From a virus: a DNA stretch of 48,552 nt. The notes below the pieces were generated by a model. The model was not told the origin of the DNA. It did not search any database and saw nothing but the letters and a program-made list of their open reading frames with translations. This document shows, piece by piece, positions 4,228 through 48,552 of this stretch (its first letter is position 1; each line of letters begins with the position of its first letter). Both the position numbers and the translations under genes were made by a program. The stretch lies in IMG/VR virus record IMGVR_UViG_3300046385_000146, positions 1-48,552 of that record, one strand, 5' to 3'.

Positions 4228-4235
4228 AATAAATA
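4228..4235 (+). promoter_or_regulatory. Candidate late promoter box AATAAATA
   Basis: TTAATAAATAACTGC sits directly before the ATG at 4241. The box resembles the T4 late consensus TATAAATA. If it works as in T4, transcription would start about at the start codon, giving a leaderless or nearly leaderless mRNA. No Shine-Dalgarno is visible. Confidence 0.4.
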
Positions 4236-4240
4236 ACTGC

Positions 4241-4687
4241 ATGAAAAAAATATTAATTTTAATTGCAGCTCTGGTTGCGTCTGCAGGCGGTCATGCACAA
4301 AAGAAGTCACCGGAAATGAAGTTATACGACTTTACTATTACTCGCGTAATCGATGGTGACACAGTAGAGTTCAGAGCCCCATTTTTGCCTGCTCCTCTTA
4401 AACCTAAGATGGCAGTTCGTGTATATGGGGTCGACACGCCAGAAAAAGGATTCAGAGCCAAATGTGAATCAGAAGCCAAACGTGGAGCCGACGCAACAGC
4501 GTTTGCCAAACAAGTAATCACAGAAAGTAAAACAGCACGAGTTGCAATCATTGACTGGGACAAATATGGTGGTCGTGTGCTGGGAGACGTTATTTTAGAC
4601 AACAATGTTAGCCTGCGTGGATTGCTGATTCAAAATGGCTTTGCCCGCGAATACTACGGTGAAGCCAAACAAAGTTGGTGCGAATAA
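4241..4687 (+). CDS. Exported staphylococcal-nuclease-like (thermonuclease) protein
   Basis: Residues 1-19 form a Sec signal peptide (MKKILILIAALVASAGGHA). The mature part is a single SNase OB-fold domain. The catalytic trio of the family is visible: Arg60 (VRVYGVDTPE), Glu68 (same motif) and Arg112 (KYGGRVLG), with Asp40 and Asp65 as likely calcium ligands. It should be a calcium-dependent nuclease acting on DNA or RNA in the periplasm, for example on competing incoming DNA or on debris at lysis; that role is inference. It is preceded by a late-type box with no leader, and followed by a terminator. A second, degenerate SNase homologue lies at 6285. Confidence 0.88.
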   Translation: MKKILILIAALVASAGGHAQKKSPEMKLYDFTITRVIDGDTVEFRAPFLPAPLKPKMAVRVYGVDTPEKGFRAKCESEAKRGADATAFAKQVITESKTARVAIIDWDKYGGRVLGDVILDNNVSLRGLLIQNGFAREYYGEAKQSWCE

Positions 4688-11334: not shown

Positions 11335-11364
11335 GCTAAGGCAATCGCAATCGGTTGCCTTAGC
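11335..11364 (+). terminator. Ten-base-pair stem-loop between hsp20 and clpS
   Basis: GCTAAGGCAA (11335-11344) pairs perfectly with TTGCCTTAGC (11355-11364) around a ten-base loop. No U-run follows, so it may be a weak terminator or a 3'-end stabiliser of the hsp20 mRNA. Its last base is the first base of the late box CTAAATA. Confidence 0.55.
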
Positions 11365-11370
11365 TAAATA
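11364..11370 (+). promoter_or_regulatory. Candidate late promoter box CTAAATA (clpS)
   Basis: The same GCTAAATA string occurs before the genes at 41445 and 47524. It directly follows a hairpin and would start RNA about 20 bases before the clpS ATG. No -35 element is visible, as expected for a sliding-clamp-dependent late promoter. Confidence 0.4.
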
Positions 11371-11396
11371 TCATTGTCAACAAATTGGATACAAAC

Positions 11397-11708
11397 ATGT
11401 CGAATACAGCAATTCAAACAATTACTAAAACAGAAAACATCACCAGTGCCAAAGAGCCCGAACGTTATCGTGTTGTTATCTTGAATGACAACTCTACACC
11501 AATGGAATTTGTTATTGAGTTGCTTAAATTGATCTTTCACCACAGTCAAGACGCTGCCGTACAAATTATGATGCAAGTTCATACCAATGGTAAAGGTACA
11601 GCAGGTGTGTACTCGTATGAAGTAGCAGAACAAAAGGCCATGGAGTCTACACAAATCGCCCGTACAAACGGCCACCCATTGGGAGTTTCTGTTGAACTCA
11701 ATGGATAA
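11397..11708 (+). CDS. clpS: ClpS: adaptor for N-degron substrates of ClpA
   Basis: A 103-residue ClpS. The core YRVVILNDNSTPMEFVIELL, the VHTNGKGTAGVYSYEVAE block and HPLGVSVE match the family throughout. Residues that bind the substrate N-terminus in E. coli ClpS are kept: Asn and Asp of the ND pair, the Met gate of TPMEF, and the His of VH. The second Asp of the usual NDD motif is Asn here. ClpS delivers proteins with Leu/Phe/Tyr/Trp N-termini to ClpA, also encoded in this window. ATG at 11397 is preferred over a TTG at 11385. The stop overlaps the next gene. Confidence 0.95.
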   Translation: MSNTAIQTITKTENITSAKEPERYRVVILNDNSTPMEFVIELLKLIFHHSQDAAVQIMMQVHTNGKGTAGVYSYEVAEQKAMESTQIARTNGHPLGVSVELNG

Positions 11709-39114: not shown

Positions 39115-39691
39115 AATTATTCTCACCGATGTGGATTCAATGCTGTTGGATTGGCAAACTGCATTTGAAGAATATGCAGAAGCTCGAGGCTATGTATTCA
39201 ATGAAAACAAGCGTATTGTGTACAGCATGGGCGCACAGCTTGGTATCCCACACGAAGAAGCTCGTAAACTGATCACAGACTTTAATCACTCCGAAGAGTT
39301 TGGTCGTATTGCTCCTTATCGTGACAGCGTTGAATACGTTAAACGCTTTAAAGATGAAGGCTGGAAGTTCGTTGCCATTACCACAGCAGGTGAACACCCG
39401 GATACTTGGCCTCTACGCCGCAAAAACTTAGATGAAGTATTTGGACCAGGTGCCATTGATGAGTTGTATGTGTTGCCGCTAAATGGCGACAAGGGTGTTG
39501 AACTTGTCAAGTACAAAGATTCTGGATTGTTCTGGCTAGAAGATAAACCTAGCAATGCAGTGCTAGGATACCAGTATGGGCTGAAGCCATTGTTGATGAG
39601 TACGTTTCACAATAGAACTTACGACGGTAGTGTAAAGCGAGTAAATACCTGGAAAGAAATTTACAGGATTATCAATGACACAGTTTCGTGA
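39107..39691 (+). CDS. HAD-superfamily phosphatase, 5'(3')-deoxyribonucleotidase-like
   Basis: A 194-residue HAD protein: motif I IILTDVDSMLLDW (Asp pair with Ser at the usual Thr position), FVAITTAGE motif II, Lys of NGDKGVELVKY region, and FWLEDKPSN motif IV. It resembles phage 5'-nucleotidase or pyrophosphatase-like HADs. It overlaps the clamp-loader gene by 8 bases and the next oxygenase gene by 17, so it belongs to one operon. Distinct in sequence from the HAD at 11701. Confidence 0.8.
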   Translation: MDKIILTDVDSMLLDWQTAFEEYAEARGYVFNENKRIVYSMGAQLGIPHEEARKLITDFNHSEEFGRIAPYRDSVEYVKRFKDEGWKFVAITTAGEHPDTWPLRRKNLDEVFGPGAIDELYVLPLNGDKGVELVKYKDSGLFWLEDKPSNAVLGYQYGLKPLLMSTFHNRTYDGSVKRVNTWKEIYRIINDTVS

Positions 39692-40487
39692 CCCATCAGT
39701 ACTAAGACCGTTTCCTCCAGAGCTTGAGCCCTACAAGGGCTTGATCTTTTGCCCACTTGATTTACCACCTCCGCCAGCCTTGGATGAAGAACGCTTGTTT
39801 GCATATATTCGTATGCGCGACGAACGTGATCGTGGAACACTAGCAGGTAGTGTAAGCGGAGCAACAGGACCTATCCCACTAGACAGTCCTTGGTTGCGTT
39901 ATACTGCCAGTTGGAGCAAGGAAAAGAACACTTACCCTTGGCGATTGTTGCACTTGATGAGAAGCGACTTTGCAAACGATGGTTGGGAATTTTATACAGA
40001 GTTTAAAGAATGGTTGCCGGAACTTGCTGCTTACTTTGAAAGTTTGCCGGTAAGCGAGTTTTATACCATGAGCTTGCTGAATCAAAAAGCCGGCACTGAT
40101 GTAGGCATACACACTGACCCTGACGTTTGGTTTGGATTACGCTTTTATGCTGTTAACCGCAGTGATGCTCGCATCTTCTTTCAAAAGGCCAAGAGTCCCA
40201 GTGCCAAGCGATTGCTTAACTTGACTCGTGATGAGAACGGCCAGATCAAGCAGTTACCGTGGAGCGACTTTGTAGAGGATGAAAAGATCTATGCACGGTA
40301 CCCGCAGCCATGCTTTCCATTCCACTTGACAACTACACATGCAGTTCATGGCGTTGAAGCTGTTCCAAGTGATCAAGAAAATGCTCGTGTAACTGGTTTT
40401 GTTATTTGTAGAGTAGACCCGGTTGCGTATGCTGATCTACTAAAGCGAAGCGTAGAGAAATATCCGGATTACGCTATTTGGTGGTAA
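39675..40487 (+). CDS. 2OG-Fe(II) oxygenase-like protein
   Basis: A 270-residue protein. The iron triad is VGIHTDPDVW (His146, Asp148) and HAVHGVE (His225), with Arg238 (ARVTGFVICR) at the 2OG position. Residues 152-170 (WFGLRFYAVNRSDARIFFQ) form the usual strands. The N-terminal 120 residues are Pro and aromatic rich and unassigned. ATG is 17 bases before the HAD stop. Ends just before a bidirectional terminator. Substrate unknown. Fifth oxygenase-like gene in the window. Confidence 0.75.
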   Translation: MTQFRDPSVLRPFPPELEPYKGLIFCPLDLPPPPALDEERLFAYIRMRDERDRGTLAGSVSGATGPIPLDSPWLRYTASWSKEKNTYPWRLLHLMRSDFANDGWEFYTEFKEWLPELAAYFESLPVSEFYTMSLLNQKAGTDVGIHTDPDVWFGLRFYAVNRSDARIFFQKAKSPSAKRLLNLTRDENGQIKQLPWSDFVEDEKIYARYPQPCFPFHLTTTHAVHGVEAVPSDQENARVTGFVICRVDPVAYADLLKRSVEKYPDYAIWW

Positions 40488-40515
40488 TAAAGGGGCTACT
40501 AGCCCCTTTATTTTA
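40488..40515. terminator. Bidirectional intrinsic terminator
   Basis: TAAAGGGGCT, loop ACT, AGCCCCTTTA: ten base pairs, with TTTTATT on the + side and a T-rich run on the - side. It separates the convergent oxygenase and PhoH genes. Confidence 0.9.
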
Positions 40516-41271
40516 TTCGTCGTCGCCGTAAATGCGAAGCACTTCGGTAACAGCTGGATGTCGTTCTACATGAGCACGATCGAACTTGACCAAGCTCATT
40601 CTTGAACTTGGATCAGCAGTTAGACGTTCAATGAAGTCACCTAAGCCGTTAACTTCAAATCCACGATCATGTTGATTCAAGTCGCCAGTGATAACCATCT
40701 TAGATCCTTCGCCGATACGAGTCAATAACATTTTCATTTGACTGACTGTGGAGTTTTGCAACTCGTCGCCAATGATAATGCTGTTCTTAAAAGTACGACC
40801 GCGCATGTAGGCCAATGGTGCAATTTCAATAACTCCTTCTAGCAGCATGCCTTCAATCTGTTTGACGTTCCAATAGTCACGAAGCACATCCATGATGGGA
40901 CGAGTCCACGGTGCCATCTTTTGTTCAAGTGTACCTGGTAAGAATCCATGCTGTTCATCTACACTCACTGCTGGTCGTGTCACAACAATGCGATCTACAT
41001 ATCCAGCTTTTAGTTGTTTTACAGCCCATAACGTGGCGATGAGAGTTTTGCCTGTGCCCGCTGGGCCTAAGGCAAATACCATGTCTTTTTTGGGATTTTC
41101 GAGGTAAGCAAGATAATCTTCTTGTCTTAAATTACGTGGGGTAATTTCAACTCGCTTGTACTTGGAGGGTTTTTCGTCACGGAAATTGTTTAACTCAATG
41201 ACCGCATTACCATCAAATCTTCTTTCACCATTACGATCACCAGCAGGTGTACGCTTCTTTTGGTTTCTCAT
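40513..41271 (-). CDS. phoH: PhoH-like ATPase
   Basis: A 252-residue minus-strand PhoH: Walker A ALGPAGTGKT (69-76), TRPAVSVDEQHGFLPGTLEQKM, Walker B SIIIGDELQN, MKMLLTRIGEGSKMVITGDLNQHDRG. PhoH is an RNA-helicase-like P-loop ATPase and a common marker in aquatic T4-like phages; its role in infection is not settled. N-terminal 40 residues are basic and polar. It is divergent from the late-type operon at 41445. Confidence 0.95.
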   Translation of the reverse strand: MRNQKKRTPAGDRNGERRFDGNAVIELNNFRDEKPSKYKRVEITPRNLRQEDYLAYLENPKKDMVFALGPAGTGKTLIATLWAVKQLKAGYVDRIVVTRPAVSVDEQHGFLPGTLEQKMAPWTRPIMDVLRDYWNVKQIEGMLLEGVIEIAPLAYMRGRTFKNSIIIGDELQNSTVSQMKMLLTRIGEGSKMVITGDLNQHDRGFEVNGLGDFIERLTADPSSRMSLVKFDRAHVERHPAVTEVLRIYGDDE

Positions 41272-41363: not shown

Positions 41364-41430
41364 ATTCATCGCTGAACCAAACTTATTTAACATCGTTGAG
41401 CGAACGGGGCAGGGTTAAGACATAAAACTG

Positions 41431-41437
41431 CTAAATA
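41431..41437 (+). promoter_or_regulatory. Candidate late promoter box CTAAATA
   Basis: GCTAAATATC is eight bases before the ATG at 41445. Identical GCTAAATA occurs before clpS and before the gene at 47524. Transcription would start at about the ATG. Confidence 0.45.
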
Positions 41438-41444
41438 TCTTACT

Positions 41445-41996
41445 ATGCCAAAGCAGAATTCTATTTACAAAAACCTGGACAACATCCACCGTAGTCCCAA
41501 TGTTATCGACACGCTAACAGAAATTGACCGTGTGCTAGACCGTATGGACATATATGCATACGAAAATTGGATCAAAGGCGAAATCGTCGACGGTCCGTTT
41601 GTTGAGCGTCACTGGGTTGAACTGACACTGATGTATCCGCTAAAAATGATGCCAAATCCCGACGCTGCCATGCGCTTGATTGCCAACGGCTGCAAAGTAA
41701 AGTTTGGCAAGGATAAGCTAACTACATTTGCCAAAGTAGAAGGGCCCAACGATTTAGTAACCACTGCTGACGGAGAACGTATTCCACGCCTGGTAAAGAA
41801 AACAGTATGGTTGGTAAATTTAAGAATGCCCGTCAGCTTGATTGACGTAAGTGAAGACATAAGCGATGTTGATGACATTGACTACGACAGCGTTGAAAAC
41901 GCATACAGCGAAGAATTAGACGGCGCAGAAGGCATGCAAGCAGAAGAAACTCCAGAAGAAGGTACAAATGATCAAACACAAGAAGTATCAGCTTAA
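41445..41996 (+). CDS. Conserved hypothetical protein with acidic C-terminus (183 aa)
   Basis: A 183-residue protein: first 50 residues helical (SIYKNLDNIHRSPNVIDTLT), middle beta-rich with HWVELTLMYPLKMMPNPDAA, last 45 residues almost all acidic and Gln/Thr. It is preceded by a late-type box with no leader. Similar proteins lie near structural genes in T4-like phages, from memory, but no function can be given. Overlaps the next gene by 29 bases. Confidence 0.68.
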   Translation: MPKQNSIYKNLDNIHRSPNVIDTLTEIDRVLDRMDIYAYENWIKGEIVDGPFVERHWVELTLMYPLKMMPNPDAAMRLIANGCKVKFGKDKLTTFAKVEGPNDLVTTADGERIPRLVKKTVWLVNLRMPVSLIDVSEDISDVDDIDYDSVENAYSEELDGAEGMQAEETPEEGTNDQTQEVSA

Positions 41997-42456
41997 CGAA
42001 AGTTTACGTCCTGGTGATTTACGTGACGTAGTAGCACCTATGATCGAAATCGATCGCTATAAGCCAAAATTGGGCACAGAAAGCGATACTGTTGTATTGT
42101 GCTTTAAGTGCGATACTGTTGAAGCCGCAGTTGATTTGGGCGCATATTTAGAATGGTCAGCTGCTGGCATAGAAGACGTTGAAGTCAGCGATGCAGTTGA
42201 CAAAGACGGTAAGTTTCATGTGTACTGCGAGATAATGCGGTTACCCGGTCTCAACGAAAAAATCATGAACATCATATCTGATGTTCAACATGCAACAGGT
42301 CCACAGGAATGGAAGTTTGTGGCCATGGATGGGCGCCGATCCAACTTGACATTGGGTGAATTAAATGCTACAATCATACAAGATCCAAAATTATACGATC
42401 TACCTCCAGAAAGTAGAGATTGGTATCTGAGAATGAAAAACTTAACAACTTATTAA
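41968..42456 (+). CDS. Conserved hypothetical protein (162 aa)
   Basis: A soluble 162-residue protein: YQLNESLRPGDLRDVVAPMI, then ferredoxin-like strands (DTVVLCFKCDTVEAAVDLGA, KFHVYCEIMRLPGLNEKIMN) and ends RDWYLRMKNL. The ATG lies within the previous gene. Always follows the same neighbour would be the expectation for a complex; that cannot be checked here. Unknown. Confidence 0.62.
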   Translation: MIKHKKYQLNESLRPGDLRDVVAPMIEIDRYKPKLGTESDTVVLCFKCDTVEAAVDLGAYLEWSAAGIEDVEVSDAVDKDGKFHVYCEIMRLPGLNEKIMNIISDVQHATGPQEWKFVAMDGRRSNLTLGELNATIIQDPKLYDLPPESRDWYLRMKNLTTY

Positions 42457-43314: not shown

Positions 43315-44124
43315 ATGGACTACTATAAAACTCTTGGCGTTGCACGGGGCGCTACCGAAGAAGAAATCAAAAAGGCTTATCGCAAACTTGCAATGACGCA
43401 TCATCCCGATCGTGGCGGCAACGAAGAAGAATTTAAAAAAATCAAAGAAGCATATGAAAAGCTCACCAGTGGACCAACCAGAGAAGATCACAATCACGGA
43501 CATGACTTTGGAGGGTTTCAAGACCTTCATGAAATGTTTAACATGGGTCGCCGCGGTGGCGGCCGTAACTGGAGCTTTGGTTCTGGATGGTCAGATGAAC
43601 TACGAAACCCCGATGTCAGCATTAGTGTTCCGTGCTCGTTAGAAGAAGCTCACGCTGGCTTTACTAAAGAAGTAGAATTTACACTACCGTCAGGTCAGGT
43701 TAGGCGCATGTCAGTGACATTCCCGCCAGGCACCACCAAAGACATTAAGATTCGCTTTGCAGGTGAAGGTGGTGTTTTAATGCCAGGTAGTACCCCAGGT
43801 GATCTGTATGTCAAAGCCAATATTGAAAGCCATCCTGTATGGCGTGTAGACGGCGGGGACCTGTTTGCCGCATTAGAAATAACAGTGTGGCAAGCCATGT
43901 TTGGTACAACAGTAGAGTTTGATGATATCAGTGGAGCGACCATGCAAATCACGGTGCCACCAGGTACACAGTCTAGATCACAACTTCGACTCAAAGGCAA
44001 AGGTATGAACATACGAGGAGCCCCTTTGCGTGGTAATGCTTATTTGGAAGTAGTGGTTCGAATCCCTGCACTAGCCGAATCAGATAAAACCAAAACAATC
44101 ATTGACTTGCAAGATAAAGTATAG
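43315..44124 (+). CDS. DnaJ/CbpA-type J-domain co-chaperone
   Basis: A 269-residue class-II DnaJ (CbpA-like). The J domain (residues 1-65) has [20 protein letters not shown] and HPD at 30-32 (THHPDRGG). A Gly/Arg-rich link ([14 protein letters not shown]) replaces the long G/F region and there are no CxxCxGxG zinc repeats. The C-terminal substrate domains follow ([29 protein letters not shown]-like block, LRLKGKGM). It would recruit host DnaK to clients. DnaK itself is not in the window. Confidence 0.95.
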
Positions 44125-44136
44125 TAAAATAACAGC

Positions 44137-44631
44137 ATGCTAGAATTTGTACAAGAACCCCACCCTTTATTATCGGCCCAATTACCACCAGTTGATCCAG
44201 GTATCAACCTAGAAGCACTAAGCAAGGATATGTTCTTGCTGATGTGGAGCAATGGTGGTATTGGCCTGGCTGCACCGCAAGTAGGTATGGCTGTTCGTAT
44301 GTTTGTTATGGGCCCACAATCAGGACCTAACTATGTTTGCATCAACCCAGAGATCGTCGAAGTGTCAGCCATTATGGAAACTGCCACGGAAGGATGCTTA
44401 TCCTTCCCAAGTTTATGGTTAAATATCAAGAGACCAACCTGGGTACATGCACGTTATACAACACTAAGCGGCGAAACAGTAGAACAACGATTTGACGGAT
44501 TGCTTGCAAGATGTTATATTCATGAACTGGAGCATTTGAATGGCATCACATTTACAAAGTACAGTTCAGAGTTGGGATTGAAACTGGCGCGAACTCGTCA
44601 GCAAAAGAAATTACGTAAAACTAAAGGGTAA
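44137..44631 (+). CDS. def: Peptide deformylase
   Basis: A 164-residue peptide deformylase with all three motifs: GIGLAAPQVG (motif I, 41-50), EGCLSF (motif II, Cys87 zinc ligand), and HELEHLNG (motif III, His129, Glu130, His133). It removes the formyl group of nascent chains. Family proteins are 160-190 residues, so this is full length. Phage deformylases are known in marine T4-like cyanophages. It lies two bases before clpA and after dnaJ, in a maturation/proteostasis block. No Shine-Dalgarno is obvious. Confidence 0.96.
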   Translation: MLEFVQEPHPLLSAQLPPVDPGINLEALSKDMFLLMWSNGGIGLAAPQVGMAVRMFVMGPQSGPNYVCINPEIVEVSAIMETATEGCLSFPSLWLNIKRPTWVHARYTTLSGETVEQRFDGLLARCYIHELEHLNGITFTKYSSELGLKLARTRQQKKLRKTKG

Positions 44632-44632
44632 T

Positions 44633-46846
44633 ATGAGTCAAGAAAACGAAAACAACGGTAAAATTAACGAGGTTATTGCTCGTGCTTTTCAAGAAGCCCT
44701 TAACCGCGAACATGAGTATGTAACGCTGGAACATATTTTGCGTGTTATGTTGGACGAAGAAGATATCCGCGATGTTCTAACAGAATTACAAGTCAATGTA
44801 CACGACTTAAAAGACGAAATTGACAACTGGTTGCGCGAACAAGAAGACATTCGTGTCGAAGGTATCACCAAGCCACGCAAGACTGCAACTCTTGAGCGTT
44901 GCTTTAACCGTGCGTACACACAAGCTATCTTTACAGGCCGCGGGCACATGGAGCCACTGGACTTGCTTATCAGCATTTCTTCGGAAAAGAACAGCTATGC
45001 CAATTTCTTTCTGACCAAGAATGGCATTACAAAAGAAACTATTATTGCTTATGTTGGCAAATTGAAAGATGGTGCCAGCAAAGAAAGCAAAGTTGCTAAA
45101 AAGCGCGACGGTGAAAAGATTCTTGCCAAGTACACCACAAACTTGAACAAAGAAGCAGAAAAGCATGCAATTGATCCGCTAATTGGTCGCGAGAAGGAAG
45201 TGTTCCGTTTGGCACAAACGCTGACACGTAAAAAGAAAAACAATGCTATCATGGTTGGTGAGCCTGGCGTGGGTAAAACTGCCATCGTAGAAGGCCTTGC
45301 TGTGGCCATTGTTCGTAATGAAGTGCCTGAAGTACTCAAGAAGAAAGTTATCTATAGCTTGGAACTGGGCAAGCTGATGGCTGGTACTCGTTACCGTGGT
45401 GACTTTGAAGAACGCATGCAACATGTTCTTGAAGCACTGGAAGAACGTGATGACATTATCTTGTTCATTGACGAAATTCACATGATCATGGGTGCAGGCA
45501 ACACCGGCGGTGGCAGCATGGACGTTGCCAACTTGCTGAAGCCTGCCCTGGAAAAAGGCAAGCTACGTTGTATTGGTAGCACCACCTACGAGGAGTTCCG
45601 TGAACACTTTGAAAAGGATCGTGCGTTGTTGCGCCGCTTTACAAAGGTTGACGTCAATGAGCCAAGCGTAGAAGAAACTAAAATCATGTTGCGCCGTGTT
45701 GCTCCTGTGTATGCCAAACATCACGGGTTGGCCATCAACGAAGAAGCAATTGATTTGGCAATTGACTTGTCAATGAAGTATATGTTGGATCGTAAGTTGC
45801 CCGACAAGGCAATCGACATCATTGATGCTTCTATGGCACGTATGCGAGTGTTAAACGCTGAAGTCAAAGAAATTACCAAAGACAATATTCGCCAAGAAAT
45901 CAGCGACTTGACTCGTGTGCCAATTGAACAGCTTGGCGAGCAAAAAGGCGTTGCTGTCACTGAACTCGAAAGCCGTATGCGTACAAACGTGTTTGGTCAA
46001 GACGAAGCAATTGAACGCTTGATGAATATGGTGTACATTGCCAAATCCGGCTTGAAAGAAGTAAATCGTCCAATGGCTAACTTCTTGTTTGTTGGACCAA
46101 CTGGTACTGGTAAAACAGAACTTGCTAACCAACTTGCCGAAGGTCTAGGCATGGAAATAATCCGCTTTGACATGAGCGAATACAAGGAGCCGCACAAGAT
46201 TGCTTCGCTGATTGGTAGCCCGCCAGGTTACGTTGGTTACGGCGAAGGCAAAGCCGGCTCAGGTAAGTTGATCAATGAACTTGAACGTACTCCTAACTGT
46301 GTGTTGTTGTTTGATGAAATTGAAAAAGCGCACCCGGACGTTATCCAAGTATTGCTGGGCTTGATGGACAATGGTATTGTTACTGGATCCGACAACAAGC
46401 AAGTAAGTGCTCGTAATGCATTTGTTATCTTGACATCTAACTTGGGTGCTGCTGATAGCGAAAAACAAGTAATTGGTTTTGGTGATGGCTTTAACTCCAG
46501 TGCCAGCGACGAAGCTGTAAAACGTTTCTTCAGTCCAGAGTTCCGCAACCGTTTGGATGCAACCGTTAAGTTTAACCGCCTGCACAAAGATGTTATTCGA
46601 CGTATTGCCGACAAGTTTATCAACCAGATTCGCGCACAACTTGCAGAACAGAATCAAACAATTACAGTTAACGACTCTGCATTGGACTACTTGGCTGCAA
46701 ATGGTTATAGCGAAACAATGGGTGCTCGACCAATGAAGCGATTGATCAACGAAGAAATTCGATTACCAGTTGCTAAACGTATTATCAAGGATGGTTTGAA
46801 TGTCCATGCTGTAACAAGCGATGGTACAAAACTAGTAATTTCATAA
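44633..46846 (+). CDS. clpA: ClpA-like AAA+ unfoldase, ClpP-docking
   Basis: A 737-residue double-AAA+ Clp protein. Clp_N repeats at 10-140 ([20 protein letters not shown] resembles the ClpA domain that ClpS binds). D1 Walker A GEPGVGKT (209-216) and Walker [10 protein letters not shown]2 Walker A GPTGTGKT (488-495) and Walker B VLLFDEIE. There is no ClpB-type middle domain between D1 and D2. The D2 loop has [10 protein letters not shown] with IGF at 614-616, the ClpP-docking tripeptide site (IGL in E. coli ClpA). Hence it is a degradation-type unfoldase that would use host ClpP. TAATATG join to the deformylase gene. Confidence 0.95.
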
Positions 46847-47472
46847 TGAAAGAACATAGCACTCAAAAACTATTTTGGAAGAAGTGGCCTTACAAAGCAA
46901 TCATTGGGATTTCTGCGGCGCGAAGTACATGGCACGGCGGGTACTCATTTAGCCACAGAAATAATAACGAACGTACTGAGGAATTTGCAAGGCTAAAGGA
47001 ATGGTTTAAGAATCATTTGCCCGAAGCTGGTATCCGTTGCGAAACACATTTAAGTGCGTTTTTATCAACTGAAGAAGAATTTGCAGAAGTACTTGATGCG
47101 TGGGGTCATAAAGTGCTTGAAGTTTGGAAACCCAAATCTGAATCAGCCAAAGATTTGCTTGTTGAGCACGAGTTTGATGTTGTCCGTGACCGTCTTTGGT
47201 ATGGCAAGTATTCAATTCGTGCAAGGATTCCATACAGTCATGAATTTAAAACTAATCATATTCCTGCCTTTAGAGAAGCAGTATTATCGTTGGGTGAAGG
47301 TAATTGGTACGCTGCTGGCCAATTGCTAGAAATTATCACTGCATCCAAAGCTGATCGTCACGGTTGGGGGCAACCCTTACACTTGTACCTTGCTAGTACA
47401 GAAGATGCGGCTATGCTACGACTACTGTGCGGCGACTACATAGAACGGTTTGAACGCATACGCAAACCATAA
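46846..47472 (+). CDS. Hypothetical protein, basic and Trp-rich (208 aa)
   Basis: Starts in TAATG of the clpA stop. KLFWKKWPYKAIIGISAARS begins a basic N-terminus; the middle is acidic and helical (STEEEFAEVLDAWGHKVLEV) and the C-terminus AAMLRLLCGDYIERFERIRK. No known motif. It could be a replication or packaging-associated protein of the T4-like set, but this is a guess. Followed by a hairpin with a late-type box. Confidence 0.65.
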   Translation: MKEHSTQKLFWKKWPYKAIIGISAARSTWHGGYSFSHRNNNERTEEFARLKEWFKNHLPEAGIRCETHLSAFLSTEEEFAEVLDAWGHKVLEVWKPKSESAKDLLVEHEFDVVRDRLWYGKYSIRARIPYSHEFKTNHIPAFREAVLSLGEGNWYAAGQLLEIITASKADRHGWGQPLHLYLASTEDAAMLRLLCGDYIERFERIRKP

Positions 47473-47487
47473 GTGCACTGCACAATA

Positions 47488-47520
47488 AAAGCCTCCCAAG
47501 CTAAATACTTCGGAGGCTTT
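47488..47520 (+). promoter_or_regulatory. Late promoter box in the loop of an RBS-hiding hairpin
   Basis: AAAGCCTCC (47488-47496) pairs with GGAGGCTTT (47512-47520), nine base pairs; one mismatch on, AAG (47498-47500) pairs with CTT (47508-47510), leaving CTAAATA (47501-47507) as the loop. GGAGG in the right arm is the ribosome site of the ATG at 47524. RNA read through from upstream would hide it; RNA started at the late box would lack the left arm. T4 genes such as e use this logic. As there is no U-run, it is not a typical terminator. Confidence 0.6.
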
Positions 47521-47523
47521 CAA

Positions 47524-47688
47524 ATGGCAAAAATATACGAAGAATTGATCGTAATCAAACTAAGCAAATTGCACAAGGAATCGCAGAGTGTAGGTACTCT
47601 TGTAGGCGATGACACTGTTGCTAACTTAGAAGCGATTGTACAACAACTTGTAGGTGAAGATGTAGTTGTTGAAGTAATCAAGGAGTAA
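47524..47688 (+). CDS. Small hypothetical protein, probable virion-region gene (54 aa)
   Basis: ATG 47524 with GGAGG eight bases upstream. MAKIYEELIVIKLSKLHKES then VANLEAIVQQLVGEDVVVEV. Small alpha/beta, like short T4-like proteins that sit at the head of structural operons. Its ribosome site is within the hairpin described above. Confidence 0.65.
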   Translation: MAKIYEELIVIKLSKLHKESQSVGTLVGDDTVANLEAIVQQLVGEDVVVEVIKE

Positions 47689-47692
47689 CAAC

Positions 47693-48058
47693 ATGAGTAT
47701 GCGTAATACAAACATGTTAGTTGCCAATGGTCAACTTGACCAAGAGGGTCCAGCAACTCGCGCTGACGGCTACTATGGATTTGCAGATGGTATGCAAACT
47801 GTAGGCTTTTATTTAAAAAACTTTGTAGGTAGAATCTATGTAGATGCTACACTAAGTGACAATCCCGGCAGTAACGATTGGTTCCCGATTGCATTAGGTG
47901 CCGCGGATTTCGTTGACTTTGAAACAGCACAAACTGGTATTGAAACTTTCAACATTGTTGGCAATTTTGTGTATTTGCGAGCTAAGATTCGCAGAAGTCA
48001 TGTAGGAAAACCAGTAAGCGATTTAGGCACTTGTGAACGAGTTGTGCTAAGTCTTTAA
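47693..48058 (+). CDS. Probable virion structural protein (121 aa)
   Basis: ATG with AAGGAGTAACAAC upstream, a strong site. MSMRNTNMLVANGQLDQEGP, GFYLKNFVGRIYVDATLSDN, FVYLRAKIRRSHVGKPVSD. Beta-rich with aromatic and Gly residues, a jelly-roll-like pattern common in small phage structural proteins. No exact family; virion role is inferred from position before a fibre-like gene. Confidence 0.62.
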   Translation: MSMRNTNMLVANGQLDQEGPATRADGYYGFADGMQTVGFYLKNFVGRIYVDATLSDNPGSNDWFPIALGAADFVDFETAQTGIETFNIVGNFVYLRAKIRRSHVGKPVSDLGTCERVVLSL

Positions 48059-48067
48059 GGAAACATT

Positions 48068-48552
48068 ATGGGTATCAGAGCAAGTTCAGGCGGGCAATTA
48101 GGCGGATCATCAAGCGGGTCAACGGGCAGCGTATTAACGCCCGAACAAGTCCAGGACATACTGTCAGAGGTAATTATTCCAGACACATCCGTACAAGGTT
48201 TAGCACTAACAGCAACTTATAACGATGCACTTGGCAAATTGGTATTGTCCTTGACAACTCCACCGTCGTCGCCAATTGCAAACGTTATCCCTGCCAGTAT
48301 CGAAGTACAGAAGCTTGGTTCAAGTCTAGGATCCGTTGAAGGTATTAACCTTGTAGGTAGCGGTGTTGGTTTAATTTCTGTATCTGACAATATTGCTACA
48401 ATTAACATCACAGGCGGTGATGGCACAGGTGGCGGTGGTGTTAGTATTGCTGGCGCAACTATTAACAGTAGCGGCAATTTAATTATTACACTAACAGACG
48501 GCACAGTTCTTAATACTGGACATGTTGTTGGTGCAGCCGGTGCAGCCGGTGC
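48068..48552 (+). CDS. Fibre-like structural protein, truncated at the window end
   Basis: ATG 48068 after AAGGAAACATT; open to the window edge (161 codons). MGIRASSGGQLGGSSSGSTG is a flexible start, then beta-strand/turn repeats (VEGINLVGSGVGLISVSDNI), Gly-rich GDGTGGGGVSIAGATINSSG, and VGAAGAAG at the edge, where a collagen-like GxY repeat may begin. Typical of tail fibre or whisker proteins. The C-terminus is outside the window. Confidence 0.75.
   Translation, partial: MGIRASSGGQLGGSSSGSTGSVLTPEQVQDILSEVIIPDTSVQGLALTATYNDALGKLVLSLTTPPSSPIANVIPASIEVQKLGSSLGSVEGINLVGSGVGLISVSDNIATINITGGDGTGGGGVSIAGATINSSGNLIITLTDGTVLNTGHVVGAAGAAG

Follow-up and report, generated by a model that had tools for sequence, protein, structure and literature searches.

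The window analysed here is the whole 48,552-nucleotide stretch of the virus record IMGVR_UViG_3300046385_000146. Its end is occupied by a late unit on the + strand, the first gene of which (47524-47688) is a conserved 54-aa gene (MAKIYEELIVIKLSKLHKE...) with 209 homologous places in viral contigs. It is followed by a virion structural protein gene (47693-48058, +; phrog_13657 / phrog_14467), an ortholog of PA5oct EST35_0299, and by a long open frame with Gly-Ala repeats (48068-48552, +) that runs off the window, is syntenic with the PA5oct structural protein EST35_0300 and probably encodes a virion fibre. The sequence-only reading had placed virion genes here, and this is borne out by the PA5oct ortholog of the 47693 gene, which is annotated as structural and marked ESI-MS/MS. 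Upstream, genes for a DnaJ-like protein, a peptide deformylase, a ClpA-like ATPase and a 208-aa protein fill positions 43315-47472 (+), and their transcripts would run into a hairpin that precedes the 54-aa gene. Further upstream lie another virion gene (41445-41996, +; phrog_12928) and a clear intrinsic terminator at 40486-40512, between the convergent genes 39675-40487 (+) and PhoH-like 40513-41271 (-).

The gene order PhoH, structural, DnaJ, ClpA, structural is common to the window and PA5oct, and both of the PA5oct structural proteins are marked ESI-MS/MS. The cultured Sinorhizobium phage Phosso has DnaJ, deformylase and Clp in that order, with homologs of the 54-aa and virion genes further along. 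Protein matches put the window near the jumbo phages PA5oct, Atu_ph07, Phosso and 121Q/RaK2. This link came through protein searches only, as a DNA search of the named phages with the hairpin region gave no match. Some homologs of the 54-aa gene (in L117-L122, L125, L126 and L130) come straight after another frame, with neither box nor hairpin in front of them (GTAAGGATTAAAATGG), and are intra-operon copies.

Positions 47488-47526 read AAAGCCTCCCAAG-CTAAATA-CTTCGGAGGCTTT-CAA-ATG, all on the + strand. The left arm, AAAGCCTCCCAAG (47488-47500), is present only in RNA begun upstream. The late-promoter box GCTAAATA (47500-47507) contributes its CTAAATA as the loop (47501-47507), and the right arm, CTTCGGAGGCTTT (47508-47520), holds GGAGG (47512-47516), the Shine-Dalgarno (SD) sequence of the 47524 gene, 7 nt before its ATG (47524-47526). 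The stem has 12 pairs and one mismatch, with nine outer pairs, a C-C mismatch and three inner pairs closing the 7-nt loop. The loop and the position of the GGAGG are therefore as first read from the letters, and the nine-base-pair stem originally proposed corresponds to the outer pairs, to which three more are added beyond the mismatch. The RNA fold of 47470-47560 has an energy of -22.7 kcal/mol (z = -4.35; 0 of 200 shuffles as good), and the hairpin at 47488-47520 is the sole inverted repeat in the last 1.75 kb of the window (46800-48552) at the search settings used. Hairpins scoring this high are not unique, since 14 occur in the window versus 1-4 in shuffles. The exceptional feature is the combination of a box in the loop with a Shine-Dalgarno in the arm, which was found at 8 of 998 TAARTA sites versus 9 of 70,504 permuted 6-mers, a 63-fold difference. 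The scan for elements of this layout also recovered two known cases, the leaders of T4 gene e and I-TevII. The element has no match in Rfam, and literature searches found no published description of it.

The sequence-only reading had likened this geometry to T4 gene e, and the likeness holds in detail. In both, the late box lies in the loop, the Shine-Dalgarno lies in the right arm and the left arm is lost from the late RNA (in the window, from the predicted late RNA); further, TAAATA-CTTA-GGAGG in gene e and TAAATA-CTTC-GGAGG in the window have the same 4 nt between box and GGAGG. The gene e leader differs in carrying TATAAATA rather than GCTAAATA in the loop (followed by CTTAGGAGG), in a second late box in its left arm and in the absence of a U-run. 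Moreover, the window element belongs to a different gene and phage lineage, and most of its relatives look like terminators too. Synthesis of T4 lysozyme was reported to be about 100-fold lower from the long RNA (PMC3014915). Similarly, the leaders of T4 I-TevI/II/III, segB and Aeh1 mobE form a hairpin over the ribosome-binding site only in early/middle RNA and have a late promoter inside (PMC2988022). Those leaders guard homing endonucleases, whereas the window element would guard a small conserved gene and virion genes.

Recognition of the box as a promoter depends on the relatives. In the window alone CTAAATA is not enriched (5 copies versus 6.2 expected) and the exact TATAAATA is absent, so that the window by itself could not have revealed a promoter. 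When the window was pooled with ten relatives (11 genomes), no 8-mer proved more enriched than GCTAAATA within 60 nt ahead of predicted starts, where 28 of its 44 copies fall (14-fold); AATAAATA comes next, and GATAAGTA and ACTAAATA are also high, which points to a TAARTA class. It occurs almost only on the gene strand, the exception being a distant 244-kb record that has it in both orientations. All three copies in the window are intergenic and just before a start codon; one of them, at 41430-41437 (+), is separated by 7 nt from the ATG that opens the virion gene 41445-41996. CTAAATA was also predicted from sequence as the late promoter of Aeh1, beginning at -12 (PMC1524935). Aeh1 thus shares the same seven-base box and has a diverged gp55, but it is a classical T4-like phage, while the affinities of the window are with the jumbo phages PA5oct, Atu_ph07, Phosso and 121Q. 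For CBB, a related jumbo phage, predictions include ATAAATA ahead of structural genes and also a protein for late transcription (PMC5259590). A homolog of the late sigma factor gp55 (phrog_12791, 2.7e-91) was found in a 285-kb relative (G013) that has the same hairpin before the same gene, and another gp55-type homolog in G011. Profile searches for gp55 in the 48.5-kb window contig and its closest relatives, all of them fragments, gave no match. Collectively, the invariance of the box in relatives, the 8-mer enrichment and the Aeh1 match agree with the late box originally proposed in the loop; its identity as a late promoter is well supported by sequence comparison, from which we infer promoter activity.

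The spacing between box and start codon indicates where late RNA may begin. When any TAARTA followed by an ATG-led open frame is counted across the relatives, TAARTA-N5-ATG is seen 69 times versus about 7 expected, a sharp peak at 5 nt; another 25 cases lie at 4 nt, and the counts dip at 9-14 before forming a second, broader rise at 16-27. At 62 of the 69 sites the base at -1 is a pyrimidine (T or C). The simplest reading would be late mRNAs that have no leader and begin with the A of AUG itself, six nt after the box, a distance that exactly matches T4 late spacing. The tenfold excess and the pyrimidine at -1 suggest that many late mRNAs in the jumbo lineage may be leaderless; in PA5oct the peak is not clear. 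One arrangement of this kind in the window is AATAAATAACTGC-ATG at 4228-4241, before a 148-aa frame at 4241. At the hairpin, the distance from box to GGAG is 4-5 nt in 15 of 15 uncultured phages compared, and 7 in Phosso. Together, the two distances predict that late RNA begins some 6 nt beyond the box, with either of the first two G of GGAGG (47512 or 47513), within the interval 47512-47515 that had been suggested for the late 5' end.

The layout is kept in about 16 uncultured relatives and, at a neighbouring gene, in Phosso. As the whole-element MAFFT alignment misplaced the left arm, the arms were trimmed into one shared register before pairs were counted, with left-arm registers set by hand from the folds, a procedure that favours structure. 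Among 16 distinct arm pairs so aligned, 96.9% of cells are standard-paired, both sides have changed at 6 of the 8 counted pairs and the box is invariant. The covariation score is 0.402, versus 0.237 (sd 0.023) for shuffled arms and at most 0.19 when the arms are slid. The inner stem varies widely, with pairing kept in most phages. The compensatory changes that had been proposed as a check are thus present, and on this comparative evidence the hairpin is one that selection appears to have kept. In Phosso the layout recurs although the stem sequence is unrelated, and GTAAATA/CATAAATA loops are seen in Phosso and L263/L272. A pattern built on the Phosso stem (at most 2 mismatches) had no match in Phosso, PA5oct, Atu_ph07 or 121Q; since the spacing it required was wrong even for the known Phosso site, the null result is uninformative.

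A scan of all viral contigs gave 36 hits versus 9 for a permuted box, 8 of the 36 belonging to an unrelated prophage-like family, and the layout recurs before several unrelated genes. Two other small genes (MKISDLDQPRIGDIVEF... and MKIRELTEASGYIARN...) are headed by this box-in-hairpin element in L024, L031, L038 and L021; the L034 copy of the MKISDLDQPRIGDIVEF... gene has the box 5 nt from its ATG without a hairpin. The prophage-like contigs (L169, L174, L175, L179, L183, L186, L188 and L193) have CCTCCGCTAAATAAACGGAGG before genes resembling head-tail connectors, in an SD hairpin with a similar loop, and show no sign of T4-type late transcription. Two more hairpins in Phosso (L143:19270-19320 and L144:11905-11950) lie just before genes with TAAATA or TAAGTA in the loop; no Shine-Dalgarno match was found in their arms, and they are possibly terminator-with-promoter elements. 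In some homologs of the 54-aa gene the box is kept but no hairpin surrounds it, which means that the gene can do without the gate.

Modelling of the RNAs shows how the hairpin could control access to the ribosome site. The Shine-Dalgarno is 0% unpaired in the long RNA versus 30-86% unpaired in the predicted late RNA, except in Phosso, where the modelled late RNA still pairs it with downstream sequence. Candidate sources of the long RNA are sigma70-like promoters in the upstream operon. One, TTGACA-17-TACAAT (11/12) at 42346-42374 (+), is conserved in position among relatives and is a possible early start of the dnaJ-def-clpA unit; another, TTGACT-17-TAAAAT at 44102-44130 (+), precedes the deformylase gene and has counterparts at a similar position in relatives. 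Across the upstream operons of relatives, 20 such promoters point forward and 3 in reverse, versus 8.2 by shuffling, and several relatives have them ~5.2-5.4, 3.4 and 2.9-3.0 kb upstream of the hairpin on the same strand. However, the late box at 41430 also lies in the upstream operon, so that the RNA arriving at the hairpin may be of late and not of early origin. Literature searches found no usable PA5oct transcriptome. The anatomy of a temporal switch, as originally proposed, is well supported by sequence; early RNA may arrive at the hairpin and would there be silent.

In most relatives the stem is directly followed by T5-T6 before the ATG, the U-run of an intrinsic terminator. Such runs are rare, as at least 5 T in the spacer between Shine-Dalgarno and start codon occur in 14 of 766 genes, and 8 of these 14 are hairpin elements. 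An intrinsic terminator was defined as a G+C-rich stem followed at once by a U-run of at least 5 of 8; the window copy has only TTT and is not listed by the terminator scan. L001 and L002 likewise have no U-run, and the Shine-Dalgarno pairing is kept in all three; at other genes, L180, L184 and L181 have strong SD hairpins and no U-run. In front of the same gene as in the window, the sister phages L226, L229 and L235 have first a separate terminator and then box and Shine-Dalgarno, and in PA5oct a separate terminator followed by a late box occupies the same intergenic slot. These phages thus have the same class of late box before the same gene or its neighbour, with terminator, promoter and Shine-Dalgarno in series, whereas the window lineage superimposes all three within a single 33-nt element. 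In the PeSL cassettes of T4-type phages an early promoter is combined with a stem-loop; the box in the window, in contrast, is of late type and lies in the loop. Given the U-run in most relatives and the separate terminator in the sister phages and PA5oct, the element probably also terminates upstream RNA in the relatives that have the U-run, where a block to transcription may matter no less than concealment of the ribosome site. With the U-run reduced to TTT, mainly the translational block would be left in the window copy. The translational gate of the sequence-only reading has sequence support, but that reading missed the terminator U-run present in most relatives. Elsewhere in the window, within 11335-11398, a strong hairpin, GCTAAGGCAATCGCAATCGGTTGCCTTAGC, ends in a GC that is also the GC of a GCTAAATA box before the gene at 11398; other relatives (L028, L033 and L044) show a hairpin immediately ahead of the box at a comparable gene. 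This is a terminator-then-box version of the same theme.

The 33-nt element is probably a gate of the gene e type between the chaperone/protease operon and the virion operon. RNA begun upstream would carry both arms and fold the hairpin, burying GGAGG and leaving the 47524 gene untranslated; the U-run that follows the stem in most relatives should stop the upstream RNA there as well. Late in infection, RNA polymerase with a phage gp55-type sigma factor would recognise GCTAAATA in the DNA of the loop segment and start RNA at 47512/47513, on the Shine-Dalgarno itself. Such RNA would be without the left arm and hence could form neither hairpin nor terminator, and would be translated from an 11-12-nt leader. 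What sequence comparison brings to this model is the box, its spacing, the conserved pairing, the fold and gp55 in a close relative; the start point and the fate of the upstream RNA we infer from these. The element would then work like the T4 gene e leader, judged by the sequence-testable features of a buried Shine-Dalgarno, a late box placed so that late RNA would lack the left arm, and pairing and box conserved among relatives, the new aspects being the lineage, the gene, the box and the terminator signature in most relatives. A broader proposal, advanced tentatively and with somewhat less than even confidence, is a three-in-one boundary element in which terminator, late promoter and ribosome site are overlaid in ~33 nt. 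With the late start on the first Shine-Dalgarno base, the promoter would switch its own RNA from terminated and hidden to extended and translated, a device reused at several genes across a large lineage of uncultured jumbo phages.

Of the other explanations, the one with most in its favour is that the hairpin is mainly an intrinsic terminator or insulator of the upstream operon, the loop box letting a new transcript escape and the hiding of the Shine-Dalgarno being a by-product. The T5-T6 runs directly after the stem, the share of the rare T-runs found in these elements and the separate terminators of the sister phages and PA5oct all speak for it, and temporal silence may not matter if the upstream RNA is itself late (box at 41430). 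It is nevertheless unlikely, because the copies in the window, L001 and L002 keep the Shine-Dalgarno pairing without a U-run, as do the strong hairpins of L180, L184 and L181 at other genes, and because control of T4 gene e, which has no U-run, is translational.

Two further explanations are less likely still. GCTAAATA could be the loop of an RNA element, e.g. the site of a phage translational repressor, rather than a promoter; T4 has loop-specific repressors such as gp43 (PMC3014915), and the loop here is invariant while the stem changes. Yet the box is enriched before many genes that have no hairpin, its fixed distance of 5 nt from the AUG and the pyrimidine at -1 are what one would expect of a transcription start and not of an RNA loop, and loops do vary in Phosso and L263/L272, which makes this explanation very improbable. 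Least credible of all is chance or shared ancestry only, with a strong Shine-Dalgarno happening to pair with an upstream CCTCC. Most relatives do share one ancestral locus, and the unrelated prophage-like contigs with CCTCCGCTAAATAAACGGAGG (8 of 36 pattern hits) have SD hairpins with the same loop word. However, the recurrence of the layout at several different genes, the different stem of Phosso, the 63-fold excess over permuted words, the 36 hits versus 9 and the compensatory changes have already largely refuted it. A promoter of the N4 type, in which the hairpin is needed as promoter, was rejected since many homologs of the 54-aa gene have this box in front of them and no hairpin.

For the gate of the gene e type, the comparisons suggest that a trick known from a handful of T4 genes has been kept by selection in very distant phages, whose virion proteins are only about 30-40% identical to those of cultured relatives. 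They further suggest that a T4-type hairpin of late promoter and Shine-Dalgarno can merge with a terminator into one compact element. As comparative data alone locate the predicted late start with an uncertainty of one or two bases, the late programme of such uncultured phages would become predictable, and the prediction could be tested in a cultured relative, Phosso.
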